Source: Candidatus Poribacteria bacterium (GTDB lineage Bacteria; Poribacteria; WGA-4E; WGA-3G). Taken from it: a DNA stretch of 64,000 nt. The position numbers and the translations under genes are program-made. Location: contig OY282386.1 of assembly GCA_958295945.1 (NCBI GenBank), positions 3,032,204 to 3,096,203 on the forward strand, read 5' to 3'. A model generated the notes under the pieces. That model made no database searches, was not told the DNA's origin, and worked only from the letters and a program-made list of their open reading frames with translations. Positions 51,601 to 60,641 of the stretch are shown here, in pieces. How positions within the stretch are numbered: the first letter of the stretch is position 1; each line of letters starts with the position of its first letter.

Positions 51601-51710
51601 AGTCTGTCCCTCCTATTGTGATGTGTTATTTTACCACATATAGTATTGATTGCAAAGGCAATTTTACAGGTAATAACCACTGGGTTTGGTTTTCACAATA
51701 TAAACAGTGA

Positions 51711-51740
51711 TTGCGCTTGGAATCTACTTTATGCTATAAT
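51711..51740 (+). promoter_or_regulatory. Promoter of the toxin-antitoxin pair
   Basis: TTGCGC (51711-51716) - N18 - TATAAT (51735-51740), 65 nt before the antitoxin ATG. Confidence 0.55.
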
Positions 51741-51804
51741 TGTTAATGGTCAATATTACATAAGCATAATTTCTATTATAAAATTAACTGAAGGAAAAAG
51801 TAAA

Positions 51805-52005
51805 ATGTCACGCCTATTAGAAATTCAGCAAGAGATCCTCGCTCTACCTGCAGATGAATACAAACAATTGCGGCAGTGGTTTAGTGAATTGGACTGGAAA
51901 AAGTGGGATCAAGAGATTGAGGTTGATTCAAAAGCAGGGAAATTAGATTTTTTGATTGCAGAAGCTCAGGACGAGAAAGAAAAAGGAACACTTAAGGACC
52001 TTTAA
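51805..52005 (+). CDS. Small antitoxin of a RelE/HigB-type module
   Basis: A 66-residue acidic protein (MSRLLEIQQEILALPADEY ...) of the short helical antitoxin type (addiction-module, RHH- or Phd-like not discernible). Start ATG 51805 behind AAGGA; the open frame runs 53 codons further upstream without support. Its TAA is directly followed by the GTG of the toxin, with no gap, so the two are translationally coupled. Confidence 0.75.
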   Translation: MSRLLEIQQEILALPADEYKQLRQWFSELDWKKWDQEIEVDSKAGKLDFLIAEAQDEKEKGTLKDL

Positions 52006-52260
52006 GTGCATAAAACGACCTCGCGTTTCTGGAGATTTCTTCAGCAGCTACCCGAATCTGTCCAGAATACTGCAAGACAGAATTTCAACTTACTCAAAAA
52101 TAATCCACAACACCCATCTCTACATTTCAAGAAAGTTGGCAAGTACTGGTCTGCGCGCGTAGGACAAGATTATAGAGCACTTGCCATTAAAGATGGAAGT
52201 GATTTCACTTGGGTTTGGATTGGTAAACACAATGAATATGAGAGACTAATTAGTCCTTAA
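52006..52260 (+). CDS. RelE/HigB/ParE-fold toxin
   Basis: An 84-residue basic protein with GTG start. The pattern FWRFLQQLPESVQ near the start and FKKVGKYWSARVGQDYRALA followed by the C-terminal WVWIGKHNEYERLI is typical of plasmid-maintenance or mRNA interferase toxins of the RelE superfamily. The conserved basic and aromatic residues for ribosome-dependent cleavage (Lys, Arg, Tyr) are present. The antitoxin precedes it. Confidence 0.85.
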   Translation: MHKTTSRFWRFLQQLPESVQNTARQNFNLLKNNPQHPSLHFKKVGKYWSARVGQDYRALAIKDGSDFTWVWIGKHNEYERLISP

Positions 52261-52332: not shown

Positions 52333-54216
52333 CTACCACGGTTGACTATATGATGGCGGATTAACAAAACGATCCATTCCGATTTCTAACGCAATATGTG
52401 TGTTAGGTAGTAAATGAACTTGAAGGTATGTTCCATTTACCTCAACATTTTTATCACCATTGGCGCGTGCTGTTGTGAAACTGTGCTCGCACATTGAACC
52501 CGCTTGGACAATAACATCGCGTGCTTCATAAGTGCTAAGGTTAACTAATTCCAGTTCAGCGGTAACAGCAGTTAATTTGGTTACTAATGCAGCAACATCC
52601 TCTGGAAGCCCAGGTCGTTTTTGTTGTGGATCATAGTGTCGCACTCGTGTAACAAGCAATCCTCCATTATAGTGTGGTAAAGGACCGCCACATGTAAGTT
52701 CAACCAATCCTTCACAGGTAACGGGATTGCGTCTTTGGAAATAAGCGTCTCCATAACCTGCTGGATCCTCGTCGTCATTTTCCATGAAGTTGAGTCGTTG
52801 TTCAACCTGCGATAGGTTATGATTGAGGATTGATTCTGGATATTCAGGAAAATCTCCTCGCATATACGCCAACCAACTACCATCGCGTCCACCTTGGTCT
52901 TTAGTGTGATGCCATGCGTTGATATCAAATTTTGATCCAGTTTTTTTCGCTATCTGTACCGCACGATCTTGGTCTTCATTCTCCATTGACATTGCCCATA
53001 AATGTGCAACATCAGACGGATGCATCGGCATGAATTCAAACCAACCATCTACCTGCAGTGCAGTGCCATCTTCGTTTGTTATCGGATATTGAAGCCACGG
53101 ACCAGGGACATAGTTAACATTGACTGGATCGCCATACTTCTGCGGCACATAGAGTTGATCGTTATGCTCTATTCCCTGCTGAATTAAGACATCAATCTGG
53201 GAGCGTGGGAAATCCATATATGTCAGATTTCTATGAAGGAGTGCAGCATTCTGCGCGGCAACACTTACTGCTTGACCAACACTATGCCAGCCATGAGGCC
53301 AACTCCAGCCATAACGAGAACCATACCACTTGCCATCCATGTGTTCTCCGATTATACCCGATAGTCCAACGTTATCAGGTATAATGCCACCATTTTCCTT
53401 TGTGCGTGCAATCCACGCGTCAACATATTCCTGAACCCACGCCTTATATTTCTCCTCTCCAGTGAGCATGTAAGCATTTGTAGCGAGCGTTGTCGCAGCG
53501 AGATTACCGACTGCGTCTCCTTTTCCTTGCCGTTCACAGATTACCTGTTCCATGCGTTTGCGTAATTCCTCACTTTCCCTGACTGCCTCATGGCTTGTGC
53601 ACCCGGGAACATCATAAAACGGCATGTTGTAGCCATCCCAAGGCCAAAATGATTGTCCTTCAAACATCCAGAATGCGGGTCCTTTACTGCCATTCATTAC
53701 ACATTTGATGATTTTGTGTTCTGGGTCGTAATTTGGTGCATCAGGATTTTCGTTCATAAAGAATCCAGCGAATCGCATCGCGCGTTGACGGTTCGTCTCA
53801 TGAGATGGATCCGCCATACACAGCATATAAAACAGATAATTACCTTCGCTTTGGTGGAACCAGTCATATCCCGGTTGATACTCCTTGACGACCATCGGAT
53901 AGTCGTATCCAGAGTTGTATCGCGTCATGTCTTTCGTGATAACTTCAAATTCGTGTTGTGCATCTACCAAGAACTGTGCATCTCCTCCCAGCATGTAGAA
54001 GAGGGGCCAGTTATGGAAACTCTCATAAGCATCATCTAATCCATCAAAGCTTTGAAAATCTGTGTGTGTTGGCCAATACAACGTTCCATCTGAACGTGTG
54101 TATTTCTTCAATGCCTTTGGAGCTGCGTCATTGATTTTGTCTATCAGTTCACGTTCAAGTACTGCCCACGTCGGTGGCGTTTGAATTCGTGTTTTTGCTT
54201 CAATTGTTGGGAACAT
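52333..54216 (-). CDS. Large cytoplasmic protein, six-hairpin-glycosidase-like, unknown function
   Basis: 627 residues without a signal peptide. W-rich segments (DGTLYWPTHTDFQSFDGLDDAYESF, ESFHNWPLFYMLGG, GYDWFHQSEGNYLFYMLCMAD) and repeated helical hairpins suggest an (alpha/alpha)6 barrel like glycoside hydrolases or lyases, followed by a beta-rich C-terminal part. A GGAGGT precedes the ATG. Catalytic acids are not identified, so the enzyme class stays open. Similar proteins seem to recur in Poribacteria-like genomes (inference). Confidence 0.55.
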   Translation of the reverse strand: MFPTIEAKTRIQTPPTWAVLERELIDKINDAAPKALKKYTRSDGTLYWPTHTDFQSFDGLDDAYESFHNWPLFYMLGGDAQFLVDAQHEFEVITKDMTRYNSGYDYPMVVKEYQPGYDWFHQSEGNYLFYMLCMADPSHETNRQRAMRFAGFFMNENPDAPNYDPEHKIIKCVMNGSKGPAFWMFEGQSFWPWDGYNMPFYDVPGCTSHEAVRESEELRKRMEQVICERQGKGDAVGNLAATTLATNAYMLTGEEKYKAWVQEYVDAWIARTKENGGIIPDNVGLSGIIGEHMDGKWYGSRYGWSWPHGWHSVGQAVSVAAQNAALLHRNLTYMDFPRSQIDVLIQQGIEHNDQLYVPQKYGDPVNVNYVPGPWLQYPITNEDGTALQVDGWFEFMPMHPSDVAHLWAMSMENEDQDRAVQIAKKTGSKFDINAWHHTKDQGGRDGSWLAYMRGDFPEYPESILNHNLSQVEQRLNFMENDDEDPAGYGDAYFQRRNPVTCEGLVELTCGGPLPHYNGGLLVTRVRHYDPQQKRPGLPEDVAALVTKLTAVTAELELVNLSTYEARDVIVQAGSMCEHSFTTARANGDKNVEVNGTYLQVHLLPNTHIALEIGMDRFVNPPSYSQPW

Positions 54217-54521: not shown

Positions 54522-55010
54522 GTGCAAGCCGATTCGAGACCTTTGAAAATTTATCTTGATACCTGTTGTTTGAGTAGGCTTTTTGATCCACTAACCCAGG
54601 TGCGGGTTCGTCAAGAAGCCGAGGCTGTCAATCGTATCCTCACTTATTGCTTCAGTGGACATTGGTATTGGATTGCTAGCGACGTTTTATTCAATGAAGT
54701 CAACCGGACTCCGGATTTAGAAGAACGCGCGCAAATAAAAACTTGGCTGACTTTTGCACACCGCACTGTCCACATCGGAACAGGCGAAATATCAAGAGGG
54801 AACCAACTTGAAGCGTTAGGATTTAAGGAGCGAGATGCTTTGCATCTTGCTTGTGCTGAAAGTGACGAAGTGAATTTCTTTTTCTCAACCGATGATCGTC
54901 TGCTCAGTAGAGCAAAACGTTATCCGCATCAGCTTCACATTCATGTTGAGAATCCTTATACATGGTTACGGGAGACAGAGAATGGACATTTTAGAGATGA
55001 CGGATCTTGA
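54522..55010 (+). CDS. PIN-domain protein (VapC-like)
   Basis: A 162-residue PIN-fold nuclease. Acidic residues: IYLDTC (first Asp), FNEVNR (Glu), KERDALHLACAE (Asp) and FSTDDRLL (Asp pair), the arrangement of VapC-type toxins. GTG 54522 is the given start, but the damaged copy at 56487 starts ATG at the codon equivalent to TTG 54543, so the start may be 54543. Its end overlaps the next gene by 29 nt. Confidence 0.8.
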   Translation: MQADSRPLKIYLDTCCLSRLFDPLTQVRVRQEAEAVNRILTYCFSGHWYWIASDVLFNEVNRTPDLEERAQIKTWLTFAHRTVHIGTGEISRGNQLEALGFKERDALHLACAESDEVNFFFSTDDRLLSRAKRYPHQLHIHVENPYTWLRETENGHFRDDGS

Positions 55011-55383
55011 GATTTATGAACTTGGGACGAAAAAACTTACAGAACAAATGGGTAGGCCGTATGCCACGCAGTTTCTGCAGAAATGCAAACCACGCGACTA
55101 CGATTACACTGCTGAGCGACATAAATGGATAGCTGACGATCCGGATATCCTCACGATGGCAAAGCAGATTCAAGAAGAAAAAACGTTGCAAGCAAAGGAA
55201 GAAAGCGTTAAAGCTGAAAGAATTTCCGCATGGCGATGTGGTTTATTAGAACTCACCGATATTGAGATCTATGAACTCGGGTTTAAAGTCCTTGCGGATA
55301 ACCTTGGTGCTTATGGGTTGTTGCGGTTCGTCACGCAGCATTTCAAAAACCTTAACGCTGATCAACATATTAACCAACTGTAG
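54982..55383 (+). CDS. Partner protein with duplicated 'TDxEIYELG' domain
   Basis: 133 residues made of two copies of a roughly 40-residue helical unit: MTDLEIYELGTKKLTEQMG ... then LTDIEIYELGFKVLADNLG, each followed by a G-x-x-R/Q-F-x-x-Q element. The first copy ends in the DYDYTAERHKWI motif. The same units head the TPR protein at 56929. GGAG lies just before the ATG. Sharing its start with the end of the PIN gene, it is probably the antitoxin or regulator of the PIN protein (inference). The frame stops at 55381; similar sequence continues beyond the stop to about 55455, so the 3' end is decayed. Confidence 0.6.
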   Translation: MDILEMTDLEIYELGTKKLTEQMGRPYATQFLQKCKPRDYDYTAERHKWIADDPDILTMAKQIQEEKTLQAKEESVKAERISAWRCGLLELTDIEIYELGFKVLADNLGAYGLLRFVTQHFKNLNADQHINQL

Positions 55384-55510
55384 CAGTTTCAGTCGGATAG
55401 CGGTGTCAATAGTGTCATGCAGACGATGAAAGAGAACGAACTTCCGAAAGACTAAATGAAATACGAGCATTCGGAACACTTCAACATTTACCTTGAGCAT
55501 AGGAGAAAAT

Positions 55511-55650
55511 GTGTATTATAACACTGAACAGTTAACAATAATCAACGAAGATGTACTGATGACCAATGCTATAGAAAAAGAAAGCATCTGACAGTGCCCT
55601 CTCCTATACGGACTAACTTACTTATGGCATTTTCGGGAAACTTATGTTTG
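55511..55650 (+). pseudogene. DNA methyltransferase relic 1 (N-terminal fragment)
   Basis: GTG 55511, behind AGGAG, starts VYYNTEQLTIINEDVLMTNA, the same leader as relic 2, then a stop at 55586. Relative to relic 2, about 60 bp including the catalytic SPPY motif are deleted, and the continuation (LSYTD, then a MAFS-like piece) is out of frame. The rest of the gene is gone. Confidence 0.65.
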
Positions 55651-56280: not shown

Positions 56281-56313
56281 AAACCGAAAACACCTTGCCT
56301 GCAGGAGAAGAAC

Positions 56314-56490
56314 GTGTATTTTAGCGACGAATAATTAACAATAATCAACGAAGATGTGCTGACAACCCGTGCCATAGAAAAAGATAGCATTGATCTCATC
56401 GTCACATCACCTCCGTACAACGTTGATATAAAATATAACTCAAATGACGATGCGCTCCCTTATACGGACTCTCTTATTTGGAATCTATGA
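56314..56490 (+). pseudogene. DNA methyltransferase relic 2 (N-terminal fragment with SPPYN motif)
   Basis: Reading from GTG 56314, the frame has an early TAA at codon 7, then continues LTIINEDVLTTRAIEKDSID followed by LIVTSPPYNVDIKYNS. S-P-P-Y is motif IV of N4-cytosine/N6-adenine DNA methyltransferases. It ends at a stop at 56488. Only the first about 58 codons of a roughly 250-400 codon gene remain. Confidence 0.75.
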
Positions 56491-56942
56491 AAATTTATCT
56501 TGATACCTGTTGTTGTAAGTCGTATTTTTGACGATCAGACCCAAATTCAAGTTCGTCAAGAAACAGAAGCAATAAAATTGATTCTTAGCCAATTGCAGGA
56601 TGGATTATGGACTTGGATTTCCAGTGAAATTTTAGGGAGGAAGTTGGAAAAAATCCGAATGAAACACATCGTTCCCAAATCGAAAATTGGTTGACTGACG
56701 CACATCAAGACGTTACCATTAAAATAGGTGAAATTTCAAGAGGAAAATATCTAGAATCAATTAGTTTTAAAGAGAATGATGCTTTGCATCTTGCTTGTGC
56801 TGAGAGCGGCTCGGCGGATGTTTTGTTAACAACAGATAATGGATTACTCAATAAGGCAAAAAGTGTGCAAACTCAACTCGACATTGAAGTTGATAATCCT
56901 TTGGGATGGTTACAGAAGGTGAGAAAAAATGAAAACACTTGA
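56487..56942 (+). pseudogene. PIN-domain gene, second copy with frameshifts
   Basis: Starts MKIYLDTCC at 56487 like the intact copy. A shift near 56507-56515 is needed to continue VSRIFDDQTQIQVRQETEA, and another near 56640 to reach EVGKNPNETHRSQIENWLTD, after which GEISRGKYLESISFKENDAL and HLACAESGSADVLLTTDNGLL follow to 56942. All PIN acidic positions are still recognisable. Decay of this copy contrasts with the intact one at 54522. Confidence 0.8.
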
Positions 56943-58044
56943 GATGACAGATAAAGAACTTTATGAACTCGGTCAAAAGGCACTTGCGGATAAACTTGGT
57001 GCCGATCAAGTTGAGCGATTTATTCGCCAATGCAAGCCAGGGGAGGGTGACTACTCTGTTGATCGCCATAAATTGTTAGAAAATCAGGGAGATATTGACA
57101 CTATTGTTGAACGTATCCAAGAGAGACGCAAAGCAAGAAAAGTCCAAGAACGTAAACGTGCTGAAAGATTCAATGCACCTCAAGGCGATATCCGAAAAAT
57201 GACAGATATTGAAATTTTTGAAATCGGACTTAAAGTTCTTGTTGATAAACTGGGAGTCGCTGGGTACTGGGGGTTTTTCCAACAGTGTCAAGAGATTAAC
57301 AGAGGTTATCCTATTGAACACATTCAGAATAAAGAAGATGCTGAAAAAGAAATTGCACTTTACACAGCAGGTATAACGCTTAATCCAAAAATGGTTGAGA
57401 GTTATATCAAGCGTGCCAATGCCTATAGTTACATCGGAGAATATGATCAAGCCATCGTAGATTTTAGTGAAGCGATAAAACTCAAACCTGATTATGCTGA
57501 AGCATATAGCACTCGCGCAAAAGTTTATCTGAAAAAAGTTGATTTTGACAACGCCATCGCAGACTATACCAAAGCTATAGAACTCAACCCTAACGATGTT
57601 AATGCATATTATACACGTGGAAAACTTTTTGTTGAGCAGGGCGAGTATGACAAGGCAATCGCTGATTTTAGCATGGCAATAAAACTTGATCCAACCCATG
57701 CCGATGCGTCCGGTTATCGTGCTACCCTTTATAATGAACGAGGTGGGTATAACAAGGCAATTGAAGGATATAGCAAGGAGATAGAACTCCGACCCTATGA
57801 TGCCGAAACCTACTATGAACGCGGTAAAATTTATGTCAAAATAGGCGAGTATGACAGTGCGATTGCAGATTTTACTAATGCGACAAAACTAATCCCAACC
57901 TTTACAGATGCCTACTTTGAACGCGCTATTGTTTATATGAGAATGGATAAGTTGGAGGAAGCAATGCAAGATTTTGATAAGGTTTCAGGGTTGAATCAAG
58001 TTTCTTACGTAGATTCTTATTTTCAAACGCTTTTTTGCTGTTAA
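56929..58044 (+). CDS. Protein with two 'TDxEIYELG' domains and TPR repeats
   Basis: 371 residues. The first about 130 contain two copies of the helical unit also found at 54982 (MTDKELYELGQKALADKLG with GDYSVDRHKLL, then MTDIEIFEIGLKVLVDKLG). From about 145 to the end are six TPRs (34-residue repeats like AYSYIGEYDQAIVDFSEAIKLKPDYAEA). Overlaps the damaged PIN gene by 14 nt, as in the first module. The TPR tail suggests a protein-binding role gained by fusion. The intact frame with a broken partner hints at a retained separate function. Confidence 0.75.
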   Translation: MKTLEMTDKELYELGQKALADKLGADQVERFIRQCKPGEGDYSVDRHKLLENQGDIDTIVERIQERRKARKVQERKRAERFNAPQGDIRKMTDIEIFEIGLKVLVDKLGVAGYWGFFQQCQEINRGYPIEHIQNKEDAEKEIALYTAGITLNPKMVESYIKRANAYSYIGEYDQAIVDFSEAIKLKPDYAEAYSTRAKVYLKKVDFDNAIADYTKAIELNPNDVNAYYTRGKLFVEQGEYDKAIADFSMAIKLDPTHADASGYRATLYNERGGYNKAIEGYSKEIELRPYDAETYYERGKIYVKIGEYDSAIADFTNATKLIPTFTDAYFERAIVYMRMDKLEEAMQDFDKVSGLNQVSYVDSYFQTLFCC

Positions 58045-58069: not shown

Positions 58070-58654
58070 ATGAATAATGGAACTGATAAAAGACTTAAGG
58101 ACTTTAAGAAAGACTTAAAAAACAATTTATCATCAATTCAGATAGTGAGAAAACACATTATTTTTGGAGAATGTTGTGAGTTATCTCAGCAGGCCTATTT
58201 TAATTTGCGTTCAGAAGTAGCAAAGAAATTCGGACTTCATCCAAATGAAGTCTTTGTGGTTGGTTCAGCAAAACTTGGTTTTAGTATTGCGCCAGATAAA
58301 GAGTATCATCTATTTAGTGATGAATCCGATATTGATATTGCTTTAGTCTGTTCAACACTATTTGATGAATTTTGGAATCAGTTGTATAGTTATAAGGAAG
58401 AGTTTCCAAATGATTGGGATGAATATGATGATTTTGTTGACTATTTTTTCCGAGGTTGGATCAGACCTGACAAACTCCCTCCTTCAGATTTATTCTCTTT
58501 AAGGAAAGATTGGTGGGATTTTTTTCGGAGTTTAACGAGTAGTGGTAGATATGGAAATTATAAGATTACAGGTGGATTATATCAGTCATATTTCTTTTTG
58601 GAGAACTACCAAAAAATTTGTATAGAAAATGTAAAAAAAATGGAGGGAATATAA
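58070..58654 (+). CDS. Nucleotidyltransferase-fold protein paired with DUF262
   Basis: A 194-residue protein with a pol-beta-like nucleotidyltransferase core: G65-S66 in VVGSAKLGFSIAPD and the metal pair D87-x-D89 in SDESDIDIAL. The insert between them is 20 residues long, longer than in MNT antitoxins. The tail is W/F-rich and helical. Its TAA overlaps the ATG of the DUF262 gene by one base (TAATG), so the two are translationally coupled. The product could be a second messenger, a modified protein or a modified tRNA; the sequence does not say. Confidence 0.7.
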   Translation: MNNGTDKRLKDFKKDLKNNLSSIQIVRKHIIFGECCELSQQAYFNLRSEVAKKFGLHPNEVFVVGSAKLGFSIAPDKEYHLFSDESDIDIALVCSTLFDEFWNQLYSYKEEFPNDWDEYDDFVDYFFRGWIRPDKLPPSDLFSLRKDWWDFFRSLTSSGRYGNYKITGGLYQSYFFLENYQKICIENVKKMEGI

Positions 58655-59697
58655 TGAAGATCTCAGTTACTAATCGACCTATACGTGAACTATTGACTGC
58701 GATTCGCCTTGAAACTTTGGTTCTACGACCTCAATTTCAAAGAAAATTAGTATGGTCGAATAAACATAAGAGTAAATTTATACAAACAGTTTTAGATGGA
58801 TTCCCTTTTCCGGAAATATATGTCGCTGCTGGTGAAGTGAATCCTAATACTGGGGATGCAAAGGAGATGTTAGTTGATGGTCAACAGCGGTTAACTACAT
58901 TACATCAGTATTTTGATAAATCACCAGCTTTAAAATTGTCAAAAGACATAACTCCTTATTCTGAACTTTCTCATTTAGAAAAATTGAATTTCTTAGAATA
59001 TGAAGTTGTTGTTCGATACTTAGGCAAAGTTGACGATGATGTGATGATAGAAATATTTGAACGGATTAACTCAACGAAGTACGCCCTGAATGCTATGGAG
59101 GTCCACAATGCGAGATATGATGGAGAAATAAAGAAATTCGCTGAAGAACTTGCGAATCATTCTTTTTTCAAAAATCACAATGTATTTAACACTACTGAAA
59201 AACAACGGATGGGCGATGTGCGTCTTATGTTAACAGTAATAATTACTATGATGTCAACATATTTTAATCTAGATAACGAATTTGAACGTTTCCTTTTAGA
59301 ATATAATGATGAATTTGAAGAAAAAGAAAAATTAGAATCTCAGTTTGAAAAAGTTTTTCAGTTTATAGATAAGTGTAGTATTCATGAAAACAGTCGTGCT
59401 TGGAAGAAGTCGGATTTATTCACTTTGCTTGTAGAAATTCATAGGGCATTATTTAAAACAGAAAGAAAACATAAACTAGTAGAAATAGAAGTTGGAGAAC
59501 GCTTACAAGAGTTCTATGATTTAGTAGATATAGCAGCTCGTACAGATAAGGATTTTGGCACAGAAAATGAAAGATTACAGGAATATTATATAGCTGCCCT
59601 TCAGGGAACTAATAGTAGAACGAACCGCATTAAAAGGGGTAAGATTATACAAGATGTAATTAACGGAGACTTTGAGTTTGATAAAATAGAAAAGTAG
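58654..59697 (+). CDS. DUF262-domain protein (ParB/GmrS-like NTPase fold)
   Basis: 347 residues. R25-P-Q-F-Q-R30 followed by VW, then D75-G-Q-Q-R79, the DGQQR NTP-binding motif of DUF262, and FERINSTKYALNAMEV. No DUF1524 HNH nuclease domain is attached, unlike GmrSD or SspE; the C-terminal 170 residues are helical. The ATG 58654 lies behind GGAGGG inside the preceding gene's end. DUF262 proteins commonly restrict modified or unmodified phage DNA, so this pair may be a defence operon (inference). Confidence 0.8.
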   Translation: MKISVTNRPIRELLTAIRLETLVLRPQFQRKLVWSNKHKSKFIQTVLDGFPFPEIYVAAGEVNPNTGDAKEMLVDGQQRLTTLHQYFDKSPALKLSKDITPYSELSHLEKLNFLEYEVVVRYLGKVDDDVMIEIFERINSTKYALNAMEVHNARYDGEIKKFAEELANHSFFKNHNVFNTTEKQRMGDVRLMLTVIITMMSTYFNLDNEFERFLLEYNDEFEEKEKLESQFEKVFQFIDKCSIHENSRAWKKSDLFTLLVEIHRALFKTERKHKLVEIEVGERLQEFYDLVDIAARTDKDFGTENERLQEYYIAALQGTNSRTNRIKRGKIIQDVINGDFEFDKIEK

Positions 59698-59741: not shown

Positions 59742-60641
59742 ATGAAAATAGCAAATGCACCATGTTCCTGGGGCGTGCTTGAATTTGACCTACAAGGCAA
59801 ATCCCCTGATTACACCCAAGTATTAGGCGAAATGCAGGCAATCGGTTACCTCGGCACAGAATTGGGAGATTGGGGTTTTATGCCAACTGACCCCGCTCAA
59901 CTCCGTGATGAACTTACTGCACGCGAGTTAACGCTCTTAGGTGCTTTTGTGCCAGTTGCTTTAGCAGATGCAGAGGCACACACAGCAGGTGAAGAATCAG
60001 CAATGCAACATGCACGACTGTTAGCAGAAGTAGCGGGTGACACACCTTTCATCGTGCTTGCAGATGATAACGGGACGGTGGAACATCGCACAGACAACGC
60101 AGGACATATTCATCCTGAACACGGATTAACGCAAGAGCAGTGGGGGACTTTTATAGCAGGTGTGCATCGTATTGCGAAATCTGTGCGGGACGACACGGGA
60201 CTCCGCACCGTTTTTCACCATCATTGTGCAGGATATGTGGAAACTCCTGAAGAAGTGGATACATTGATGCAACGCACTGATCCGAATCTAGTAGGGTTGT
60301 GTTTTGATACGGGACATTTCCGTTTCGGTGGTGGTGATCCGATAGATATATTTGATCGGCACGCTGAACGGATATGGCACGTGCATTTCAAGGATTGCCA
60401 ACCTGATATTGCTGCCCGTTCTCGTAAAGACGGTTGGGATTACTTCAAGTCTGTAGAGAATGGCGTTTTTTGCGAATTGGGTAAAGGTGAGGTAGATTTT
60501 CCATCGTTCATAGCCGAATTGCAGAATAGGAATTACGATGGATGGATCGTCGTTGAGCAAGATGTCTTGCCGGGAATGGGTAGTCCATATCAGAGTGCAA
60601 AACGGAATTACCAATATCTGAGTTCAATTATCGGAAAGTGA
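59742..60641 (+). CDS. Sugar phosphate isomerase/epimerase (IolE-like inosose dehydratase)
   Basis: A 299-residue TIM-barrel protein of the AP-endonuclease 2 / xylose-isomerase-like family. The N-terminal NAPCSWGVLEF and IGYLGTELGDWGF are close to IolE (2-keto-myo-inositol dehydratase); metal ligands are likely E in the VETPEEVD region, D in CFDTGHF, H in VHFKDC and E in VVEQD near the end. Cytoplasmic. No other iol genes are adjacent; it starts 45 bp after the DUF262 gene and is probably not part of that island. Confidence 0.82.
   Translation: MKIANAPCSWGVLEFDLQGKSPDYTQVLGEMQAIGYLGTELGDWGFMPTDPAQLRDELTARELTLLGAFVPVALADAEAHTAGEESAMQHARLLAEVAGDTPFIVLADDNGTVEHRTDNAGHIHPEHGLTQEQWGTFIAGVHRIAKSVRDDTGLRTVFHHHCAGYVETPEEVDTLMQRTDPNLVGLCFDTGHFRFGGGDPIDIFDRHAERIWHVHFKDCQPDIAARSRKDGWDYFKSVENGVFCELGKGEVDFPSFIAELQNRNYDGWIVVEQDVLPGMGSPYQSAKRNYQYLSSIIGK

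Follow-up and report, generated by a model that had tools for sequence, protein, structure and literature searches.

A nucleotidyltransferase-like gene coupled to a nuclease-less DUF262 gene: a probable two-gene anti-phage operon of Candidatus Poribacteria and other bacteria

What might a small nucleotidyltransferase (NTase)-like protein and a DUF262 protein without a nuclease do together? The question is raised by two overlapping genes at positions 58070-59697 of a 64,000-nucleotide stretch of DNA from a Candidatus Poribacteria bacterium (contig OY282386.1, positions 3,032,204 to 3,096,203), which we call the window. Gene A (58070-58654, + strand) is an open reading frame (ORF) running from ATG to TAA and encodes the NTase-like protein A of 194 aa; gene B (58654-59697, + strand) encodes protein B of 347 aa, a DUF262 protein in which no nuclease domain was detected. 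The genes share one base at TAATG (58652-58656), the TAA of gene A occupying 58652-58654 and the ATG of gene B 58654-58656, as the preliminary description of the locus had stated. The GGAGGG at 58642-58647 (+ strand), inside the end of gene A, is, as read from the sequence, a good ribosome-binding site for gene B. That description had proposed a candidate defence system. The near-obligate pairing of the genes and their setting in a phage hotspot, in prophages and at the Poribacteria site speak for it, and we consider the pair very probably to be one.

The association of the two genes is not accidental. A profile scan based on an alignment and run over 84,980 prokaryote species genomes yielded 31 loci of A, where a single-sequence scan of genome contigs with protein A had given no match. 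At 30 of these loci a homologue of B, encoded on the same strand, lies directly downstream and in most cases overlaps A; the sole exception (L044) has a truncated A. The absence of such co-occurrence from other genomes, which the preliminary description took as fatal to its proposal, is thus not what we see. Pairing with B is near-obligate for this NTase clade. In family relatives A and B adjoin wherever A is complete; a frameshift breaks gene A in L048 and L050, and gene B runs past the contig end in L068. The nearest relatives of protein A are on contigs labelled Candidatus Poribacteria, and the hosts of the pair comprise Poribacteria, Bacteroidota, Pseudomonadota and Bacillota. Copies are carried by a 6.2-kb Cronobacter plasmid, by a Pseudoalteromonas plasmid and by a prophage in 3 of 5,426 E. 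coli genomes, and all three of the occurrences found on viral contigs are pairs, though tblastn of protein A and two relatives against deposited phages returned none. Distance matrices of A and B over 30 loci correlate (r = 0.968, matched by 0 of 2,000 permutations), a value that measures joint inheritance and not contact. Comparison of the window with four relatives gives ratios of nonsynonymous to synonymous substitution (dN/dS) of 0.19-0.36 for A and 0.14-0.28 for B, which indicate that both genes are under purifying selection. Since order and overlap are conserved across phyla and dN/dS stays within 0.14-0.36, chance does not account for the pairing.

It should be noted that the search patterns were drawn from members linked to B, which may have led to under-sampling of members that have other partners. 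There is one sister clade of this kind, forming a second two-gene unit in four Poribacteria genomes and on an Aliarcobacter plasmid. Its NTase gene overlaps one for a small protein resembling GT51 peptidoglycan transglycosylases (PF00912, E = 6.7e-36 in L002). The loci are G000:C1:4476731-4477153 (L011/L037), L002:5235-6489, L032, L033 and L034.

The genomic setting of the pair points towards defence. Two of the viral pairs (L021 and L022) have a Phage_GPA gene (E = 3e-124 and 6e-131) on one side and a Phage_portal gene on the other. In P2-like phages the cos-proximal gpA-gpQ locus is a hotspot of anti-phage systems (PMC9122126), and the position of these two pairs, being that of the hotspot, supports a defence module. 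Downstream of the third viral pair (L020) comes a KAP P-loop NTPase, and one further copy (L055) has cytosine methyltransferases, a Vsr nuclease and a NERD-helicase around it. In Winogradskyella a reverse transcriptase of 702 aa (PF00078, E = 6.6e-17) lies directly downstream of the pair (L056:1841-3949).

At its native site the pair lies in an interval bounded by two conserved genes (52333-54216, − strand, and 59742-60641, + strand); the genes that flank it encode a tetratricopeptide repeat (TPR) protein and a sugar-isomerase-like protein. Upstream of the counterpart of the 59742-60641 gene, relatives carry alternative cargo: cassettes of a methyltransferase with an HNH or other presumed endonuclease (L120, L122, L123, L126, L129, L132), a GmrSD-like DUF262 protein (L121) or, in genome G016 (L118), a type II cyclic oligonucleotide-based anti-phage signalling system (CBASS) together with restriction-modification (R-M) genes and an intact B (342 aa) that has only a short remnant of A. 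Among the cargo proteins of this site that were compared with PADLOC, the methyltransferases, the CBASS parts and the GmrSD-like protein were supported, and the 228-aa ORF of L122 was without a match. Two methyltransferase relics in the window (55487-55588, the remnant of an R-M cassette, and 56296-56475, both on the + strand) are N-terminal pieces of the R-M methyltransferase that is intact in L118 (tblastn, 62% over 34 aa and 88% over 60 aa, respectively). Because of these relics and of the cargo in relatives, we regard the site as a defence hotspot and the pair as one of its interchangeable loads.

Protein B matches DUF262 (PF03235/GmrSD_N, E = 4.8e-22) and no further domain; neither DUF1524 nor another nuclease domain was found with Pfam, in agreement with the preliminary description. 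The DGQQR NTPase motif of DUF262 is retained at residues 75-79 (58876-58890, + strand) and is unchanged in all 31 B homologues, in which QR29-30, W34 and R325/R328 are invariant too. In PADLOC the best matches of B are to the profiles of NsnA (E = 3.3e-37, residues 2-337 of B on positions 45-380 of 385) and PD-T4-2_A (E = 1.8e-19). In its AlphaFold2 model (predicted local distance difference test score, pLDDT, 86.6) the N-terminal part has a ParB/Srx fold, with Z 8.8 to PadC and about 8 to ParB, while over the whole chain B is like BrxU (Z 9.4, root-mean-square deviation (rmsd) 10, 298 residues aligned) and SspE (Z 8.0). The high rmsd to BrxU means that the domains align and their arrangement does not. 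The C-terminal part of B is helical, as in BrxU and SspE minus their HNH nuclease. The DUF262 part of BrxU and SspE binds and hydrolyses nucleoside triphosphates (NTPs), and in SspE it couples the recognition of marked DNA to activation of the nuclease (PMC10952713, PMC13251355). B has kept the NTPase motif and is devoid of the nuclease domain.

The partner is more difficult to place. Protein A matched no Pfam, NCBIfam or PADLOC model, nor did it and its 30 homologues match any PADLOC model at E up to 1; a search of Protein Data Bank (PDB) sequences with its profile gave no match, and Foldseek against PDB and BFVD gave nothing significant. It does match PHROG family 32008 (phrog_32008, E = 1.8e-13). 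The signature G65-S66-x-K68...S72...S86-D87-x-D89 (58262-58336, + strand), with a GS-x20-DxD spacing, is invariant in 31 of 31 homologues, so the GS...DxD motif pointed out earlier in this small protein stands. PF01909 (NTP_transf_2) is weakly matched by 9 of the 31 (best E = 8e-4). The AlphaFold2 model of A (pLDDT 94.4) is nearest to the MNT antitoxin 8xeo, although weakly (Z 4.8, rmsd 4.1, 91 residues aligned), followed by the aminoglycoside NTase AadA (Z 4.0) and by cGAS and CdnD (Z 3.3-3.4), with CutA and the head domain of the CCA-adding enzyme among the other weak matches. These weak fold matches, the invariant motifs and the weak PF01909 matches, taken together, suggest that A may belong to the pol-beta NTase superfamily.

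None of the known systems that we compared has this composition. NsnA is the PADLOC name of what we take to be a component of Menshen (NsnABC), and B matches it over the full length; however, no gene for an OLD-type nuclease/ATPase lies beside B, whose only conserved neighbour in 30 other loci is the small NTase-like A. With PD-T4-2 the likeness is again confined to B, as its second protein was not recognised. GmrSD, BrxU and SspE share DUF262 with DGQQR, but their DUF1524 HNH nuclease is missing from B, A contains no nuclease, and a separate NTase-like protein is present instead. In HEPN/MNT modules (HepT-MntA, type VII toxin-antitoxin) a small NTase-like gene also comes first and overlaps its partner; there the motif is GSX10DXD and the partner a HEPN toxin, whereas here the spacing is longer, a conserved third acid is missing and the partner is DUF262. 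For CBASS, 0 of 31 A proteins match any PADLOC cyclase model. Each of these systems thus fails a tested defining feature and was rejected as the identity of the pair, and a simple type IV restriction enzyme is ruled out by the lack of a nuclease domain. We found no named system made up of these two parts in PADLOC (2023 copy), NCBIfam or the portion of the open literature that our search covered, in keeping with what had been said of the locus before. Probably the pair adds a version with an NTase partner to a kind of defence, based on DUF262, that was already known.

Other DUF262 proteins help to assign roles. Among nuclease-less relatives from phages and plasmids, those of L015, L016 and L019 are accompanied by HEPN-like proteins (PF18737, E = 7.6e-18 in L016; for L015 and L019 the call is visual and based solely on an RNxxAH/RNxCAH motif). 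These DUF262-then-HEPN loci (L015:3935-5633, L016:140-2015, L019:4001-5712; a plasmid and E. coli phages) are possibly another DUF262 module. On Asticcacaulis and Pseudanabaena plasmids (L012:3983-6129 and L013:3983-6227) a nuclease-less DUF262 gene overlaps one for a Ser/Thr protein kinase. As in the A-B pair, nuclease-less DUF262 is placed beside one small partner gene, but the partner lies downstream, while A is upstream. Because DUF262 relatives exchange partners in this way, DUF262 reads as the sensor; the shared part being the sensor and the changing part the output, A is the probable effector.

We therefore picture a mobile, self-contained two-gene anti-phage operon that might work as follows. 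B, a ParB/Srx-like DUF262 NTPase, would be the sensor and switch, probably recognising invading and perhaps chemically modified DNA and then undergoing an NTP-driven change. A, presumably in complex with B and enzymatically active, would be the output licensed by B, and might stop phage growth by attaching a nucleotide to a target of the cell or of the phage, either an RNA (for instance tRNA) or a protein. Such an effector can be likened to MenT, one of the NTases that act as toxins by modifying tRNA (PMC10435456). We rate this division of labour, a DUF262 sensor with an NTase effector, at slightly short of evenly balanced. Control through a nucleotide signal or through modification, which the preliminary description suggested, is a possibility.

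Several of our results weigh against parts of this picture. The HEPN partners lie downstream of DUF262, so A does not simply occupy the position of the effector, and the gene order, with A first, fits an antitoxin-like A that modifies B equally well. All fold matches of A have Z below 5, and unrelated folds are interspersed among the NTases. There is no conserved third acidic column in the 31 homologues. NTases such as MntA, in which D39, D41 and D71 hold the metal (PMC7641770), use a third carboxylate, so catalysis by A is unsure; A may be inactive, or may borrow an acidic residue from B or elsewhere. One alternative is a toxin-antitoxin logic as in HEPN/MNT, where the upstream A would nucleotidylate B and keep it inactive until infection frees a damaging or DNA-binding B. 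A precedes and overlaps B, much as in MNT modules the antitoxin gene comes before that of the toxin (PMC3710099), A has its best fold match in an MNT antitoxin, and MntA AMPylates HepT through its GS...DxD motif (PMC7641770). The different motif spacing, the absence of HEPN or any recognised toxic domain from B, and the survival in G016 of an intact B with a mere remnant of A, so that B is tolerated there without A (although that B may be decaying), make this somewhat unlikely. If A were instead a catalytically dead subunit binding nucleotide or nucleic acid, the pair would restrict in a type IV-like manner or act as a block by binding DNA, its activity residing in B. The unconserved third carboxylate, the resemblance of B to BrxU and SspE over nearly its whole length and the conserved R325 and R328 suit such a scheme, which we nevertheless hold unlikely, as G-S and D-x-D invariant across phyla are unusual for a dead enzyme and B is without a nuclease domain.

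A CBASS-like logic, with A making a nucleotide second messenger that activates a DUF262 receptor, could draw on the NTase-like fold of A, on its weak likeness to cGAS and CdnD and on a weak match of one sister-subfamily member to a CBASS cyclase profile (E = 0.005). It is very improbable: PADLOC cyclase models match no A homologue, A (about 200 aa) is shorter than cGAS/DncV-like NTases, no known Cap effector accompanies it, and characterised DUF262 proteins bind ordinary NTPs. The pair could also have no part in defence and be a mobile housekeeping or stress module of prophages and islands. Most chromosomal copies outside Poribacteria are indeed solitary among ordinary genes, and many chromosomal copies lack any obvious defence gene in the surrounding 6 kb. 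The enrichment near defence genes that the preliminary description proposed to test was not broad when 135 neighbour ORFs were compared by PADLOC with 135 control ORFs of the same contigs: cytosine methyltransferase models matched three neighbours (among the best 25 of 79 families) and no controls, and the most frequent control model, a generic one, occurred four times. Local enrichment around chromosomal copies is thus weak and patchy. The gpA-gpQ location, the chromosomal site at which R-M, GmrSD-like and CBASS cargo takes the place of the pair, and the fact that the closest curated profiles of B are those of defence proteins count against a non-defence role, and we consider it quite improbable.

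Some further features of the native site deserve mention. The PIN domain (54522-55010, E = 7.4e-5), a second PIN remnant (56487-56951) and the two methyltransferase relics make up the island that had been reported beside the pair. In the unit at 54522-55383 the ORF after the PIN protein overlaps it and carries repeats of a 'TD.E.YELG...L' domain. A second copy of the unit, at 56487-58044, has a broken PIN and its ORF fused to TPRs; the unit recurs at this site in relatives, possibly as a toxin-antitoxin-like pair with an undescribed partner domain. Two small ORFs at 51646-52260 resemble, on visual inspection, an antitoxin gene and, after it, a toxin gene of the RelE/ParE type. In L118 a complete-looking type II CBASS locus (L118:1-4108; cyclase E = 9e-146, E1-E2 1e-190, JAB 7.5e-63, Cap4-like nuclease 2e-47) lies upstream of the conserved isomerase-like gene.

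In phage restriction DUF262 is a common sensor module, and it has mostly been studied in forms that have an HNH nuclease attached. Tentatively, and without calling it probable, we suggest that the pair may represent a distinct class of DUF262 immunity, where a nuclease-less, NTP-switched DNA sensor activates an NTase and the output would be nucleotide transfer (to tRNA or protein) or a nucleotide signal, not DNA cleavage. If this is true, an NTase stands in the place of the nuclease in a widely spread module, and the DUF262 sensor would be modular and able to drive different outputs. The pair is compact, easily cloned and has natural copies in E. coli prophages, and would give a handle both on sensing by DUF262 and on the targets of the NTase.
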